Source: Armatimonadota bacterium
GTDB lineage: Bacteria > Armatimonadota > Fimbriimonadia > Fimbriimonadales > Fimbriimonadaceae
NCBI GenBank assembly: GCA_020161505.1
Contig: JAIUNY010000003.1
Span: 124,001 to 188,000 of the forward strand
Direction: 5' to 3'
DNA: 64,000 bases
The number at the start of each line of letters is the position of its first letter. Positions within the stretch are counted from its first letter, which is position 1. Made by a program: the position numbers and the translations under genes. The notes beneath the pieces were generated by a model that did no database searches, had not been told where the DNA came from, and worked only from the letters and a program-made list of their open reading frames with translations. Below are positions 4,402 to 32,303 of the stretch, one piece after another.

Positions 4402-6651
4402 CTAAGTTCGAATTGGAATCTCAATTCGAGGCGCTAGAACACGTACGTTCGCTCCAAATCGCGCCCTTACCCGGTCATACAGATCATTTACTGCTCTACA
4501 ACGAATTGTGAGAACAAGAGCGTACGGGATATCCGGTTGATTTGCTGCGCTATCCGGCTGGCCCTCCTGTCGGCGATTGTAATGAAGTTCGATAACCGGA
4601 TTGTGAAGACTCGTACCGCGCTTTGTCTTGGTTACCTTGAGAACCGTATCCCAGAGATGAGCATCACGCCGATCATCACTCGTACCATACGCACTCCCTT
4701 GATTGAAAAGCGTGTCACTCAAGACCGTGGTGCTGGGTCGCTTGCTGCCATCAGGGTCTATTATTGTTCCGAATTTCTCTGAGTGCGGCCTGAAAATCGC
4801 TTCAACCCCGGCCCGCACGTAGGTTGCTGGAAAACTAGAATCCACCGGAGAAGCAAAACAAAGTGTAGCTTTGAGCTCTACCATGCCCGCAAGATCAGGA
4901 GGTAAAGGCAACTTATGTTGCAGGTATTTTCCGGCAACAAGACTGCCTTGAAAAATTATTTTGACCTCGTTCGGGTCAGATGTGAGCAGATTTGCAATAT
5001 CTGACTCAACAAGTCCGTGCCCTACGTCTCGACGGTCCCGCTCTTCAAGGCGACAGCCATGCAGAAGGAGGGCTTTCACAGCAATCGGTGACAATTGTTC
5101 GCCCATCGTTGCTAAGATTCCTCCTGCCGTGCGCATCGCACTTGGAGATGAAAAGCTCGTGCCCTGCGTGTTGTAGCGGTCTGGAGTCGCATTTGGTCCA
5201 ATGCAGCCGAAGGGTTCATCCATTGATCCACCAAAAGTGACGCAATCTGGTTTCACTCTACAACCGTGGCGTCCCGGCCCGACGCAACTGTAGTCCGCTC
5301 GCTGCCAACTGCTTTGCCGCGAATTTGTTGCTCCAACTGCAATGCTGTTCACAGCATCAGACGGTGGCTGAATGCGGTTCAACGCTAAGTCGGTATCTAG
5401 CTCACCGTCATTTCCGACCGCCACGAAGCACAGTCGTTCGCCCGTCGAAGTTAGGTCGTCAACTACCGCCGTGAAGGGGTCAATCTCGTCGTCGTAGATT
5501 GCTCCATCCGGACCAAAGCTTAGGTTAAATAGAGGATAGTTTCCGGCTATAACCTGCTCCTTAATCGTCTTCAAAGCTGCCAGGTACCCCGATCCATCCG
5601 TGTCCACTCCGAGCACTCCATGATGGTGGAGCACATACGGTGCTCTGCCTCCCTGCAAATTGTCCAAAGGGCCAAGTGTAGCGGCAGACGCAACACATAA
5701 GCCGTGCAATCGCTCGTCAGCGTCTGCATATGGTTCGACTCCGTGCTCATGGTGGATCACATATCTGGTCAGAGCATGCTCGGCGGGCAACGGTGTATCG
5801 AAGACGGCAGCAGCTAGCCCTGTGTCAAGTGGGTCATCGCTCGGCAGAAGTACGGGGACGCCTACGGCTGCTCTGGAGATTCTCGACGGCAGAAGTGGGC
5901 GCATTCGTGGCATAGGTCGCACTCTCCTGAGAAACGAAAACAAAGCTAGATCCTCCAGTCTTTCGAAATCACCCGACACGGCAAGGAAGCAGAGTCCTGA
6001 GGCAAACAATTCGTTGTCCGAGTCAACCCGAAGCCCAAGTGACTCAGCATATCCTTCAAAGAGGCGCACAATATTCCCGTCCACCGCCGTCGGGTGCGCA
6101 TGAAGAACACACTCCAAAACTTTGGTTTCTTGACTGGGCCGAAAACCTGCAAGTCGATCCTCACGCGTCACCGCGCGAAAATCCTCAACCGCTGTCAAAT
6201 TATCGGCAACTTTGGCTGGAATGGATTCCAAGGGACGCTCTAATACTGCCGAGAGGTGTCTGAATGAATCTAGCTTTCCGGCAACGTAGACGGTCGAAGT
6301 TGCCTCCTCTCTCGGTTCTGATTTGCGATCAACCTTTTCAGGAGTCACACGACTCGGCTTGCTGCCCACCGCCCGCAATCCCACTTCTGCAAGTAATCCA
6401 CCCGGGAAGGCTGATTTGCTGAGAAATTGGGGATGCAGCGTCAATGCTGCGACAGCCTCTCCGTCCGGAAGTGCGGCACTCGGCATGGTCTGAATTGAAG
6501 CAACGATCGCGCTGGCGCGCGTGGCAATCCGATCTCTAGCTTCCGAAAGCGAATACGGCCGTCGTTCCTGCGGAGCGCGAGGTGATGGCAGTACGGTTTC
6601 AACGAGTAGCTCGCCCGCTCCAAGTATATAGTTTCGTCGATCTTGGCTCAT
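4402..6651 (-). CDS. ietS: IetS-like subtilisin-family (S8) protease of an anti-phage pair
   Basis: 749 aa. The S8 triad is visible as D285 (VFDTP), H316 (LHGLCVAS) and S499 (GTSFSSP), with the oxyanion Asn at N414 (VAVGND). A ~270-residue N-terminal region precedes the protease and a ~200-residue region follows. There is no signal peptide, so it acts in the cytosol. It overlaps the upstream AAA+ gene by four bases. Subtilase plus AAA+ ATPase pairs are known as IetAS, first described as a plasmid exclusion/toxin-antitoxin pair in Agrobacterium and later found to defend against phage. The symbol rests on architecture and context. Confidence 0.85.
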   Translation of the reverse strand: MSQDRRNYILGAGELLVETVLPSPRAPQERRPYSLSEARDRIATRASAIVASIQTMPSAALPDGEAVAALTLHPQFLSKSAFPGGLLAEVGLRAVGSKPSRVTPEKVDRKSEPREEATSTVYVAGKLDSFRHLSAVLERPLESIPAKVADNLTAVEDFRAVTREDRLAGFRPSQETKVLECVLHAHPTAVDGNIVRLFEGYAESLGLRVDSDNELFASGLCFLAVSGDFERLEDLALFSFLRRVRPMPRMRPLLPSRISRAAVGVPVLLPSDDPLDTGLAAAVFDTPLPAEHALTRYVIHHEHGVEPYADADERLHGLCVASAATLGPLDNLQGGRAPYVLHHHGVLGVDTDGSGYLAALKTIKEQVIAGNYPLFNLSFGPDGAIYDDEIDPFTAVVDDLTSTGERLCFVAVGNDGELDTDLALNRIQPPSDAVNSIAVGATNSRQSSWQRADYSCVGPGRHGCRVKPDCVTFGGSMDEPFGCIGPNATPDRYNTQGTSFSSPSAMRTAGGILATMGEQLSPIAVKALLLHGCRLEERDRRDVGHGLVESDIANLLTSDPNEVKIIFQGSLVAGKYLQHKLPLPPDLAGMVELKATLCFASPVDSSFPATYVRAGVEAIFRPHSEKFGTIIDPDGSKRPSTTVLSDTLFNQGSAYGTSDDRRDAHLWDTVLKVTKTKRGTSLHNPVIELHYNRRQEGQPDSAANQPDIPYALVLTIRCRAVNDLYDRVRARFGANVRVLAPRIEIPIRT

Positions 6652-7739
6652 GGCGTACTCTTTGCCCTCTTTCGCAACGTGTTTCTAGAGGTACCCGTGA
6701 GTTCTGAGGCTCGCCGCTGAGAGACCCCAGCTGCCACCATGCGTTCTGAAATGATATGCCTTTCTGCCTGCGGGAATCGCCGAATTACCTCCGCACAGGA
6801 CTCCAGCAGGCCATCGGCTTCTGGAACCCCAGCAAGAACTGAGAAGCGTTTTGACGAGCGAATCTGTCGCACGATGTCCGCCTGACTCATTCCGGCCATC
6901 GCCTGAGTTAAAACTGTAAGCAAACCTGCCTCGCCAATACCTTGCTGCATCAGGAGGGCCTGGCGTTCACTACCAGAAGGCAAAGTGAACTCTAGAACAC
7001 TCTCGAATCGTCGCCAAATTGCTGGATCAAGAAGGTCTGGATGATTGGTTGCAGCGAGAACAAGCGATCCTTCAGGCCATTCATCAAGCTCCTGCAGTAA
7101 CACATTTACTAATCGCTTAAGCTCGCCAAGGTCAGTTTCGTCCGCTCGTCGCTTTGCTATTGCGTCGACCTCGTCAAGGAGAAGCACGCAGTCAAACTCC
7201 TTACAAAAATCGAACAGCTGTCGGACGTTCTGTCCACTCTTTCCCAGAAACGAACTTATCGCAGTGGCCAGGTCGAGTACAACCAACGGCAAGCCAAGTT
7301 GACCAGCGATCCAATGAGCAGTCATTGTTTTGCCAACCCCCGGAGGCCCAACTAGGAGTGCTGACTTAGTTGGGCTCAGGCCCGCCAGCCTCAATTGTGA
7401 CGGGTCGCGATGCTCTGAGACAAGCTGGGAAACTCGAGTCCTCGTAATCTCATCCAGTATCGGCTCTCGGGCCAACGCAGGCTCAATCACCCTTGCGAGA
7501 GCCATTCGAGAATCAGCATCTACAGGCAATGGCCGACCAGCAGCTCTGAGGGCACCGTTTCGTACAGCCAAGAGAGCGAGCCTCTCAGCCAGCTCAGGAA
7601 TCTCATCTTTGTACTTCTGGGACATACGACGCGCGAGTGCCTTGACGTCCCGGCTCCTTCCTTCACTCCCGAATTGAACCAAGTGGATCACATCTTGAAT
7701 CAGGGCTGACATATGCTCCATATCCTTTCGAGTGCTCAT
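6648..7739 (-). CDS. ietA: IetA-like AAA+ ATPase, partner of the subtilase
   Basis: 363 aa. Walker A GPPGVGKT at 131-138, Walker B VLLLDE at 185-190, sensor-1 Asn in LAATNH at 232, arginine-finger candidates R243/R244 in IWRRF. The C-terminus (GVSQRRASELTGTSRNTLRK) looks like a helix-turn-helix, possibly for DNA binding or autoregulation. It is first gene of the two-gene operon and overlaps the protease gene by ATGA. In IetAS pairs the ATPase is thought to hold the protease in check or activate it. Its start is preceded by CATAAT only 8 bp away, suggesting a leaderless mRNA. Confidence 0.87.
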   Translation of the reverse strand: MSTRKDMEHMSALIQDVIHLVQFGSEGRSRDVKALARRMSQKYKDEIPELAERLALLAVRNGALRAAGRPLPVDADSRMALARVIEPALAREPILDEITRTRVSQLVSEHRDPSQLRLAGLSPTKSALLVGPPGVGKTMTAHWIAGQLGLPLVVLDLATAISSFLGKSGQNVRQLFDFCKEFDCVLLLDEVDAIAKRRADETDLGELKRLVNVLLQELDEWPEGSLVLAATNHPDLLDPAIWRRFESVLEFTLPSGSERQALLMQQGIGEAGLLTVLTQAMAGMSQADIVRQIRSSKRFSVLAGVPEADGLLESCAEVIRRFPQAERHIISERMVAAGVSQRRASELTGTSRNTLRKRAKSTP

Positions 7740-7858: not shown

Positions 7859-8110
7859 ATGTCAGACAAGAAGAAAACCGTAACCATCGTCGTAAACGGG
7901 ACCGCTCACGAGTGGCCCAAAGGGGAGATCACCTATGAGGAGGTCGTCACGCTCGAAGTGCCCGATTATCCTCAGCATCCCGAGATCAGCTACTCGGTCA
8001 AGTATAAGCGGGGCCATGGTAACCGACCAGAAGGGACTCTGTCACCTGGTGGGTCTGTCCGGGTTAAGGAGGGAATGAGCTTTAGTGTTTCAGAAACTGG
8101 TCAGTCATAA
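7859..8110 (+). CDS. ubiquitin-like modifier (multiubiquitin family, single domain)
   Basis: 83 aa, start ATG at 7859 preceded by AGGAG. The pattern VTIVVNGTAHEWPKGEITYEEVVTL and a later YSVKYKRGHG / GSVRVKEGMSFSV fit the beta-grasp multiubiquitin family found in bacterial ubiquitin-like conjugation operons. Only one domain is present. There is no cysteine and no Gly-Gly end: the last residues are SETGQS. It overlaps the E1-like gene by 26 bases, so translation is coupled. Role: the small protein activated by the next gene (family knowledge); its target is unknown. Confidence 0.8.
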   Translation: MSDKKKTVTIVVNGTAHEWPKGEITYEEVVTLEVPDYPQHPEISYSVKYKRGHGNRPEGTLSPGGSVRVKEGMSFSVSETGQS

Positions 8111-9257
8111 TCCTGACTTGAAGCTCCTCGTCGAGAAAGGCTATGCCGTCGCAATTGATGGCGGATACTTGCTTGTACGCGACATTCCGTACCTTGACTC
8201 TACGAAGGCCCTCCAATGGGGGGCGTTCGTAGCAAAGCTCGTTTTTACTGATACCGAACACTTTCAGCAGGATGACCATCAGGTATTTTTCGCTGGCAGT
8301 GTTCCCCATGGACTCGACGGGAGGCCAATTCCAAATCTTGGCGGAGGCGCGGTACAAATCGAGCTCAGCGCTATAAATCAGGATGTTAAGGTTGAGCGCA
8401 GTTTCTCGAACAAGCCAAAGGCGACCGGCGCATTTGCCAACTTCTTCGAAAAGATCGAGAGCTACGTTACGATTGTTGCCGGGCCAGCTATGGAGCTACA
8501 CAACGTAACTCCCTATACATTCAGGGTCGTTGAGTCCATGCCAGATTCAGTTTTCAAGATTCATGACACTCTCTCTAGTCGCGCTGAAATTACCGACCTA
8601 GCTAAAACAGTCTCAGAAGATGTCGTTGCCGTCATTGGACTTGGTGGAACAGGCTCATATGTGCTCGACATGCTGGTTAAGACCCCCATTCGCGAAATCC
8701 GCGGGTTTGACGGTGACATGTTTCATGTTCACAATGCATTCAGGTCACCAGGTCAGCTGAACCTAGCCGATCTCGGTCAATCAAAAGCTGCGGTTTACAA
8801 CCATCGGTACGACAGCCTTCGCCACGGATTAGTGCTCAAAGCTGAACGGATTGACGAGACCAACGCAGAATTGCTTGATGGCGTAACCTTCGCCTTTGTT
8901 TGCATTGACAGTGGGACTGCGAGAGCAGAGATATTCGAGTTACTTGCAAAGCAAGGGATTCCCTTCATCGACGTTGGGATGGGACTTCAACGAAAGAACG
9001 GCTCAATCAACGGCATGCTGCGAACCACCTTCTTTTCAGCTCAAACTGCCCGGGAGACAATCGACCGGGGTTTTGCGCCCCTTAGCGATGACGCGGAAAA
9101 TATCTATAAGTCGAATATTCAGATCGCTGAGCTCAATGCACTCAACGCCTGCCTGGCGGTCATTAAGTACAAGCAACTTCGAGGCTTCTACTATGAGGAA
9201 GAGCCACTGGTACACCAACTATTTGAGATTGGTGACATGAAAATTGTCGGTGAGTAA
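8085..9257 (+). CDS. DUF6791-ThiF fusion, E1-like adenylating enzyme
   Basis: 390 aa, GTG start inside the end of the Ubl gene with AAGGAGG upstream. Residues 1-~165 match the DUF6791-type domain that accompanies these systems. Residues ~178-390 are a ThiF/E1 adenylation domain with GLGGTG at 185-190 and FDGD at 208-211. Only two cysteines exist, C273 (FVCIDS) and C356 (NACLAV), both in the nucleotide-binding core, so a classic E1 or E2 catalytic Cys is not evident. Expected role: ATP-dependent activation of the adjacent Ubl. A Ser/Thr-based transfer is possible, as reported for related bacterial pathways, but is inference here. Confidence 0.8.
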   Translation: MFQKLVSHNPDLKLLVEKGYAVAIDGGYLLVRDIPYLDSTKALQWGAFVAKLVFTDTEHFQQDDHQVFFAGSVPHGLDGRPIPNLGGGAVQIELSAINQDVKVERSFSNKPKATGAFANFFEKIESYVTIVAGPAMELHNVTPYTFRVVESMPDSVFKIHDTLSSRAEITDLAKTVSEDVVAVIGLGGTGSYVLDMLVKTPIREIRGFDGDMFHVHNAFRSPGQLNLADLGQSKAAVYNHRYDSLRHGLVLKAERIDETNAELLDGVTFAFVCIDSGTARAEIFELLAKQGIPFIDVGMGLQRKNGSINGMLRTTFFSAQTARETIDRGFAPLSDDAENIYKSNIQIAELNALNACLAVIKYKQLRGFYYEEEPLVHQLFEIGDMKIVGE

Positions 9258-9265
9258 TCCGCACC

Positions 9266-9676
9266 ATGCGTTTTGACCAGAAAGATGTCGAGTTTATGCC
9301 AGCCACTCTTGAGCCAGGGGTTCTCTATGTGTCAAGAGAGTACGAGATCGCGGTTCATCTATGCGCATGTGGATGTGGCTCAAAGATTCGAACGCCTCTA
9401 GGACCGACGGAATGGTCTGTCACGGTTACCCATAATGGACCGACACTTTCTCCTTCAATTGGAAACTGGCAACTTGAATGCCAGTCTCACTATTGGATCA
9501 GTGATGGAAGCGTTAGGTGGGCAGAAAAGTGGACAGAGGAGCAAGTTCTCCTTGGCAGGGAGGATGAGAAGCGTCGTCTCCATGAATATTTGGAAGCAAA
9601 GAATCCGCACAAATCCGGCATCGTGGAACGTGTGTGGAACTGGCTTCAGTCACTATTCTCTCGTAAGAAGCTTTAG
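9266..9676 (+). CDS. DUF6527 zinc-binding protein of the ubiquitin-like operon
   Basis: 136 aa, 8 bp after the E1-like gene. It shows CACGCG (C33, C35, C37) and CQSHYWI (C72, H75), a metal site typical of DUF6527, with SPSIG between. A charged C-terminal tail ends WLQSLFSRKKL. This family recurs as third member of multiubiquitin/ThiF operons. Its biochemical role is not settled; a ligase-adaptor or a protease-like function are both conceivable. Confidence 0.75.
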   Translation: MRFDQKDVEFMPATLEPGVLYVSREYEIAVHLCACGCGSKIRTPLGPTEWSVTVTHNGPTLSPSIGNWQLECQSHYWISDGSVRWAEKWTEEQVLLGREDEKRRLHEYLEAKNPHKSGIVERVWNWLQSLFSRKKL

Positions 9677-30967: not shown

Positions 30968-32113
30968 CTACGACGTGCCATCGACAAACAGAGCATTGAG
31001 CGCGGTGCGCAAGATGCTCTGTGACATCGCGAGGGGTCTGGTGTAGTTGACCTCGGTTACACCGCTTGCAGCATGTCCAACGTGTTCCTTGAGCGTGGTC
31101 GCGGAGACATCAGGACACAGTTTCTCGATCCAATTGATGTGCGTGAGCCGACAGTCGTGCGGACTCATGTCTTCTGGCAGTCCCGCCTCCTTGCGTATTC
31201 GACGCCACGTTGCGTAGGTGAGTGCCTTCATTCGCGGTTTGTTCTCCTCTGCCGCTGACCACAGGTAGTCCCCTGAACTCTTACCTTCGCAAAGTGGGCG
31301 AAGTATTGCCGCCAGAGTGTCGCACATCACCGAGAGGCGAACCTTGTCCCCCTTCGGTAACCCAACGGTCTGTGCGCTCTTCTCGGTCAGCTTCACAGCC
31401 CGGTCAACAAGAATCGTGTTCTCTTTGAAATTGACTTGCCCAACGGTGAGCGCCATTTGCTCTCCGAGCCGAAGACCGGACAGCAAGTACACCGCCAGGA
31501 TTCCTCTTCGCTTTTCATCCAGTTCCTTGCTGGACAGTGCCTTCTTCGCTTCCTTGGGCGTCAACGCAACTGCCACGCGCCTCGGTGGTGTTTTGAGTTC
31601 CAATGCGAATGGATTGCGCCAGAAGTGCGGGACTCGACCATATGGAGTGATAGCCTGGTTGAACGCCCTTACGAGGAGCACTCTAAGCGCAATGATGGTG
31701 TGCTGCCCAACTCCAGTTTCTCGAAGGTGGGTGTAGAAGGACTTTACGTCAACTGGATCGATCCGGGTTAAGGGTACGTCGGCCCAACGAGCCTTTGCGT
31801 ACTTCTCATAGCGGGCTTTGCGATCCCTCACCGTTTTCGGATCGAGTGACTCGCTCCAATCATTCTTGATGAGCCAGTCGAGCCAGTCACCAAACGTGAG
31901 GTCATGGGTGATCTGATGAGCCGCAGGACTCCCGTCTTTGCGAAGCGACCGGAGAAACTCCAGCCCTTCCTTCTGAGTTGAGAACACCCTGGAAACTCGT
32001 TTCTGAGACCCGTCAGGCTTTCTCAGGCGGTACTGCACCCGCCACTTACCGGAGAGTTTTCCGCTTTGGATTTTTCGGCAGGAACCCTCTCCGCTGTCCG
32101 CTCTAGTCGCCAT
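30968..32113 (-). CDS. int: tyrosine integrase of the element
   Basis: 381 aa from the ATG at 32113 (a GTG at 32131 is possible). Catalytic residues are visible: Arg in LLSGLRLGEQ, HDCRLTH for the HxxR box, GHAASGV, and the nucleophile Tyr in EVNYTRPL. The N-terminal region has SAM-like and core-binding helices. It sits 114 bp from the tRNA-Arg 3' end, and the double 11-bp repeat lies just upstream of its start, which may give autoregulation. All catalytic positions are intact. Confidence 0.93.
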   Translation of the reverse strand: MATRADSGEGSCRKIQSGKLSGKWRVQYRLRKPDGSQKRVSRVFSTQKEGLEFLRSLRKDGSPAAHQITHDLTFGDWLDWLIKNDWSESLDPKTVRDRKARYEKYAKARWADVPLTRIDPVDVKSFYTHLRETGVGQHTIIALRVLLVRAFNQAITPYGRVPHFWRNPFALELKTPPRRVAVALTPKEAKKALSSKELDEKRRGILAVYLLSGLRLGEQMALTVGQVNFKENTILVDRAVKLTEKSAQTVGLPKGDKVRLSVMCDTLAAILRPLCEGKSSGDYLWSAAEENKPRMKALTYATWRRIRKEAGLPEDMSPHDCRLTHINWIEKLCPDVSATTLKEHVGHAASGVTEVNYTRPLAMSQSILRTALNALFVDGTS

Positions 32114-32147
32114 AGTTCCAAGAGTGTACACCGCTTTGGAGTGCGTT

Positions 32148-32227: not shown

Positions 32228-32303
32228 TGGCGGCCCCGGAGGGAATCGAACCCCCGACGCCCTCCTTAGGACGGAGGCGCTCTATCCACTGAGCTACGAG
32301 GCC
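32228..32303 (-). tRNA. tRNA-Arg (anticodon CCT), integration target
   Basis: 76 nt folding as a full cloverleaf: acceptor GGCCTCG/CGGGGCC, D-arm GCTC/GAGC, anticodon stem CCTCC/GGAGG with loop GTCCTAA (U33, A37), T-arm GGGGG-TTCGATT-CCCTC, discriminator G and encoded CCA. The 3' half from the anticodon loop on is now supplied by the element. Confidence 0.95.

Follow-up and report, generated by a model that had tools for sequence, protein, structure and literature searches.

Three co-directional genes, all on the forward strand, occupy positions 7859–9676 of the window, the stretch of 64,000 nucleotides from an Armatimonadota bacterium that was analyzed here. The same limits had been given for this operon in the initial annotation and are correct. 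The first gene (7859–8110) encodes a ubiquitin-like modifier (Ubl) of 83 amino acids, which had been described as a single domain ending in SETGQS; it does contain one Multi_ubiq β-grasp domain (PF14452, 1e-17), and its C-terminus reads ...VSETGQS. The second gene (8085–9257) begins with a GTG start codon and encodes an E1-like protein of 390 amino acids with Pfam matches to DUF6791 (3e-42) and ThiF (8e-14). The DUF6791 domain, a proposed E2-like module, covers about residues 10–162 (8112–8570), and the ThiF adenylation domain covers about residues 170–390. The third gene (9266–9676) encodes a DUF6527 protein of 136 amino acids (PF20137, 7e-25), which is proposed to be a Ser-His peptidase. The end of the Ubl gene, stop codon included, overlaps the start of the E1-like gene by 26 nt (8085–8110).

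Related operons were collected from 108 loci (L001–L108), of which 80 came from genome contigs, 6 from whole genomes, and 22 from plasmids. The 80 contig loci were obtained with an alignment-based scan; a scan of the same contigs with a single protein provided none. The E1-like protein matches 116 plasmid records, and no homologue of it was found in the phage records searched. The triad of Ubl, E1-like protein, and DUF6527 is present in nearly all of the 108 loci, with truncated contigs accounting for several of the exceptions, and the operon pattern is therefore real and not a product of chance or artifact. The family is spread over many phyla, and the aligned E1-like relatives are 30–65% identical in sequence. 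Both the DUF6527 gene and DUF6791 are absent from seven congeners of the window organism. In L009, L015, L027, L112, L024, and L025, genes for small DUF2188 or DUF3892 proteins precede the Ubl gene, often lying between it and a regulator gene.

The window operon sits between an IetAS pair and a type I restriction-modification (RM) system. The gene for the IetA-like AAA ATPase (6648–7739, reverse strand; PADLOC IetA, 1.5e-79) is the divergent neighboring defense gene, and it is accompanied by a gene for an IetS-like S8 peptidase (4402–6651, reverse strand; PADLOC IetS, 2.6e-44). Four loci have an IetA-like AAA ATPase adjacent to or in the vicinity of a DUF6791-type operon (4402–7739 of the window, 5914–9176 of L008, and in L079 and L102); the IetA-like gene of L008 is followed by one for an S8 peptidase. 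These genes belong to a low-GC island at 1–32303 of the window, with a GC content of 0.51–0.56 versus about 0.60 to its right. The island ends in a gene for a phage-type integrase (30968–32131), which adjoins tRNA-Arg(cct) (32228–32303). Its cargo includes the type I RM system, Mrr, a RhuM-family protein, an ArdC-like anti-restriction protein, a serine recombinase, a T4SS coupling protein, and IetAS. A search with a 26-nt pattern from the end of the tRNA did not find a second att site. Homologues of the operon occur with HTH plus ImmA/IrrE-type or WYL regulators, which are CapH/CapP- or CapW-like; no regulator of either kind was seen beside the window operon. The IetAS/RM island setting and the regulators in relatives together support, but do not prove, a role of the operon in defense or DNA damage.

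It had been claimed initially that the operon holds no separate E2 or peptidase gene. The claim stands for the E2: the operon contains neither a separate E2 gene nor a JAB gene, and the genome as a whole (99.94% complete) provided no match to Prok-E2_E or to Prok-JAB, the latter of which did give matches in control genomes. No Prok-E2_E match was found in L001–L108. The sole JAB-like match in the 108 loci is a weak one near a DUF6791-type operon (L078, a 222-aa frame around 2042–2710, E 5e-4). The part of the claim concerning the peptidase is doubtful, as DUF6527 probably is one.

The sequence of the E1-like protein bears out C273 and C356 as its only cysteines. These two residues, or a cysteine at position 75 that has been lost in the window protein, could in principle serve an ordinary thioester cascade, since C273 is a cysteine in 85 of the 102 aligned E1-like proteins and position 75 is one in 39. 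No cysteine column is invariant in this alignment, however. C273, part of the core strand FVCID, is replaced by Ser, Ala, or Asn in the other 17 proteins, and C356 is a cysteine in 40 of the 102. Position 75 is occupied by His (42, the window protein among them), Cys (39), Tyr (19), or Phe (2), with at least 23 changes of state on the tree, and was rejected as the site of a lost catalytic cysteine. A thioester cascade of this kind is accordingly very unlikely. A conserved cysteine or a separate E2 that is present in homologues and lost only here was looked for among the 102 E1-like proteins and in L001–L108 and was not found.

An alignment of homologues had been proposed as the means of finding a conserved Ser/Thr or Cys. 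S108 and K110 of DUF6791 and R313, Y341, and Q346 of the E1 part are invariant in all 102 proteins. The codons of S108, a candidate E2-type nucleophile, and of Y341, a candidate E1 nucleophile, lie at 8406–8408 and 9105–9107, respectively. T315 (99/102) was also considered as the E1 nucleophile and was ranked under Y341, on the grounds that the latter does not vary and plausibly has a counterpart in the Bub (bacterial ubiquitination-like) pathway, possibly BubCD Y370.

Three of the adenylation residues (G188, R220, and K234) do not vary among the 102 proteins, and a fourth, D275, is conserved in 101 of them. They appear to correspond to MoeB G41, R73, K86, and D130 as named in PMC12355090. Activation by ATP is expected, since these residues are intact. 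Their conservation at 30–65% identity bears against a degenerate or non-enzymatic system in which the E1-like protein only binds the Ubl and a nucleotide as a sensor. This reading would agree with the literature, in which no reported activity was found for DUF6791-type operons, but it is highly improbable. The likeness of the E1 core to ThiF and MoeB could also be taken to mean that the Ubl is a sulfur carrier of the ThiS/MoaD kind. The C-terminal Gly is absent from the Ubl, however, no rhodanese or sulfur-metabolism neighbors were seen, the setting is one of defense genes, and the genome encodes another protein with a much stronger match to the ThiF family; a sulfur carrier is the least credible of the readings weighed here.

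A PDB search with the single E1-like sequence provided only weak matches, which were resolved with the family profile. The best solved relative of the profile is BubCD of Citrobacter, and a profile-profile comparison with it gives an E of 5e-18. The Citrobacter proteins BubA, BubB, and BubCD (PDB 9ea4, 9ea5, 9ea8, 9eae, and 9eav) were used as the Bub reference. The AlphaFold2 model of the E1-like protein (pLDDT 91.5) matches BubCD best among solved structures, with a Foldseek E of 5e-14 and a VIA-align Z of 24.5 (rmsd 2.8, 217 aligned, residues 167–390); ThiF (1zud) reaches a Z of 23.7, within 1 of BubCD, and the two are tied by this measure. The E1 core is homologous to BubD.

Y370 in BubCD numbering is the invariant Tyr of its loop in 7/7 Bub E1s. 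The solved Bub complex 9eav carries Y370F, which suggests that Y370 is catalytic. Y341 of the window family and Y370 of BubCD have the same Y-x4-Q spacing, although the assignment of the matching BubCD Tyr hinges on gap placement, because the loop lengths differ and an automatic alignment can shift Y341. The catalytic Cys of UBA5 lies in the same loop region as Y341. The initial annotation had argued that conjugation, if active, must use a nucleophile other than cysteine or a C-terminal chemistry not seen in eukaryotes. This may hold, but the chemistry seems not to be new to bacteria, since the Bub pathway reportedly works via oxyesters.

The predicted order of DUF6791 in the AlphaFold2 model consists of helices, strands at 20–25, 28–37, 43–54, and 66–70, a long loop ending at S108, and a helix at 120–139. 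This order fits the E2 plan, in which a four-strand meander is flanked by helices and the active site precedes the next helix. Comparison of DUF6791 with E2 profiles by hhalign gave weak matches with probabilities of 1.5–25%, which do not support homology statistically; the best, at 25%, covers 26 columns with an E of 8e-4. One of these weak runs places S108 on the Ser of the Bub E2 motif QRWSRH. The fold search bore mainly on residues 167–390, the span of the BubCD match, and barely on this domain. Its predicted order of secondary structure makes DUF6791 the natural candidate for an E2, fused to the E1 and replacing a separate protein.

In 106 of 107 loci the Ubl stops directly after a Ser, which in the window is Ser83 (codon 8105–8107). 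A T-x-x-S tail is nearly universal and is independent of the number of β-grasp domains. The solved relative 9cd2, named "ZDHYS365 multi-ubiquitin domain protein", ends in TDKS (profile E 4e-22). The Ubl of L092 is the sole one of the 107 to end in Ala (TGQA).

In 100 loci the end of the Ubl gene overlaps the start of the E1-like gene, and the overlap is 26 nt long in 86 of them, a length conserved across phyla. The E1 codon that overlaps the final codon of the Ubl has T as its third base in 99 of the 100 overlapping loci. On average T makes up only 0.42 of the C/T-ending codons in the same genes, and the shared codon has its T even in all 25 loci with the lowest share of T (under 0.3); these codon counts come from related sequences and are hence non-independent, but their direction is clear. 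The E1 residue after the shared codon varies among His, Arg, Leu, and Pro, and every one of its codons starts in C, because the Ser codon TCN requires it. The count of loci without an overlap is seven, of which L051 and L086 appear to have a broken E1 frame; in the other five (L066, L068, L071, L087, and L099) the Ubl frame closes before the E1 frame opens and the Ser end is kept. The variable E1 residue and these five loci led to the rejection of the idea that the terminal Ser is a side effect of the E1 frame that overlaps it. The codon pattern indicates that selection acts on the terminal Ser itself. The mature Ubl, whether full-length or cut back, for instance to the conserved Thr, would lack a conserved Gly end. 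The initial description of an operon that lacks both a catalytic cysteine and a Gly tail thus extends from the window to the whole family. The features of a eukaryote-type ubiquitin cascade that were looked for, a catalytic Cys in E1 and E2 and a C-terminal Gly, are absent.

A selected Ser in place of Gly would also suit an E1-like protein that modified the C-terminus of the Ubl itself, by forming a Ser-adenylate, by cyclizing or amidating the end, or by passing it to a small molecule, with DUF6527 acting on the product. MccB and PaaA are E1-like enzymes that act on non-Gly peptide ends. Both are among the profile and fold matches of the E1-like protein, and the lack of a separate E2 would be accounted for. 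BubCD outscores both enzymes, however, and the invariant Ser and Lys of DUF6791, along with a DUF6527 gene that Bub has as well, suggest that the Ubl is conjugated and deconjugated. Modification of the Ubl's own end is therefore considered a rather unlikely alternative.

DUF6527, with its CxCxC...CxxH site, had been named as the only candidate helper. The site is present in the window copy (CACGC at 33–37, with C33, C35, and C37, and C72..H75), but the protein is better read as a peptidase with an invariant Ser-His pair, and DUF6791 joins it as the candidate E2. Ser64 and His75 were found in 109/109 DUF6527 copies, 103/103 of the window type and 6/6 of the Bub type. The four cysteines are invariant in the 103 window-type copies and are partly lost in some Bub-type copies, most clearly in L112 and L135, where Ser64 and His75 are kept. 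The persistence of this pair where the cysteines are lost favors catalysis by the Ser and His, supported by a zinc site. From its sequence, DUF6527 is better described as a putative Ser-His peptidase and is probably the missing peptidase of the operon. Bub is likewise said to have a Ser-His protease.

It has also been weighed whether conjugation proceeds as proposed while DUF6527 serves as a zinc-binding E3 or in target recognition, in keeping with the older Zn-finger idea of Iyer et al. 2006. The invariance of C33, C35, C37, and C72 in the DUF6791-type copies would suit such a protein, as would the predicted model (pLDDT 91), for which a fold search provided no significant match among solved structures. 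Ser64 and His75 are nevertheless kept in all Bub-type copies examined, even where L112 and L135 have lost Cys ligands, and the E3 reading is judged unlikely.

The conserved residues can be assembled into a pathway for a modifier whose encoded C-terminus is T-x-x-Ser and not Gly. The ThiF domain would adenylate the C-terminal carboxylate of the Ubl with ATP. An E1 hydroxyl, most probably on Tyr341, would then take up the acyl group as an oxyester and hand it on to Ser108, with the fused DUF6791 domain standing in for an E2. Transfer from Ser108 to an amine or hydroxyl of the target would complete the conjugation. DUF6527, with Ser64, His75, and usually a zinc-type Cys site, would remove or process the Ubl. 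The lack of a conserved reactive Cys and the fixed Ser end suggest tagging via oxygen esters and not sulfur chemistry.

The chances appear about even that the operon encodes a minimal Bub-like, ubiquitin-type conjugation system without a catalytic cysteine, probably anti-phage or stress related. The full scheme, in which a modifier is activated and conjugated via its C-terminal Ser by one polypeptide with E1 and E2 functions, hydroxyl nucleophiles alone (Tyr341 and then Ser108) hold every enzyme intermediate as an oxyester, and a zinc-supported Ser-His protease of new fold performs the removal, is put forward tentatively, as a possibility with the balance against it. If it is right, three short genes suffice for ubiquitin-type conjugation that has neither a catalytic cysteine nor a Gly-ended modifier; the system would be very small for its kind, and a wider chemistry becomes a possible origin of ubiquitin signaling. 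S108, Y341, and the TxxS tail would be defined targets for mutation, and the TGQA end in L092 would be a natural test of the terminal Ser.

Among known systems, Bub is the closest relative of the operon. A Multi_ubiq modifier, a ThiF E1 core, and DUF6527 as the last gene are common to both, as are plasmid settings and CapH/CapP- or CapW-like regulators in relatives of the window operon; such regulators are reported with Bub operons in PMC13373217. Cysteine-free chemistry, as reported for Bub, may be a further likeness, given the invariant S108 and Y341 and the lack of an invariant Cys in the window family. The Bub operons differ in having a Prok-E2_E E2 (BubB), either separate or fused to the Ubl, and an E1 that bears JAB (BubC) in the place of DUF6791. 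In L109, a Citrobacter locus that closely matches BubCD, the Ubl is fused to Prok-E2_E and JAB is fused to ThiF, and DUF6527 is present. The Bub E2s conserve QRWSRH or close variants. Prok-E2_E proteins split into this Ser type, which occurs with Bub (L109–L115 and L133–L135), and a group with mostly GWTACCLH (L116–L130), apparently a different, Cys-type system. The modifiers differ as well: most Bub-type Ubl ends examined, four of six in one comparison, point to Gly, whereas the window type ends in TxxS. TTTEG ends the Ubl in L110 and L112 and precedes the fused E2 in L134, NNG takes that place in L111 and in L109 (the point at which solved BubA ends), and other ends are found in L133 and L135. 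Because of this difference, the two systems may not share all steps.

The Bil (bacterial ISG15-like) system resembles the operon in its E1, its Ubl, and its defense setting, but it works via a thioester cascade and has its E2 and JAB in genes of their own. UBA5, ThiF, MoeB, and MccB have the adenylation fold in common with the window E1 and act on different substrates. Cap2 of type II CBASS uses cysteines. It carries an E2-like domain N-terminal to the E1 in one chain (PMC12355090), the arrangement proposed here for DUF6791, but it conjugates a CD-NTase, and its sequence match to the window E1 is marginal.

The operon also matches operon class 6e in its "domain X" version, and in this respect the operon was partly anticipated by Iyer et al. 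2006 (PMC1779556). The portion of that source compared here lists a polyubiquitin-like protein, with a solo-Ubl case noted, an E1 in which domain X replaces JAB, and a metal-binding protein Y. This content matches the Ubl, E1-like, and DUF6527 genes of the window, except that an inactive E2/RWD protein is also listed and is absent from the loci examined here. Domain X is probably DUF6791, and from the class 6e table we infer that Y is DUF6527. The same portion gives no residue-level mechanism for the class. As far as the compared literature shows, with Gong 2025 and Ye et al. (NSMB 2026) outside it, the new elements are the lack of a conserved Cys in 102 E1-like proteins, the invariant S108 and Y341, a Ser end that appears to be selected, and the persistence of Ser64 and His75 in DUF6527.
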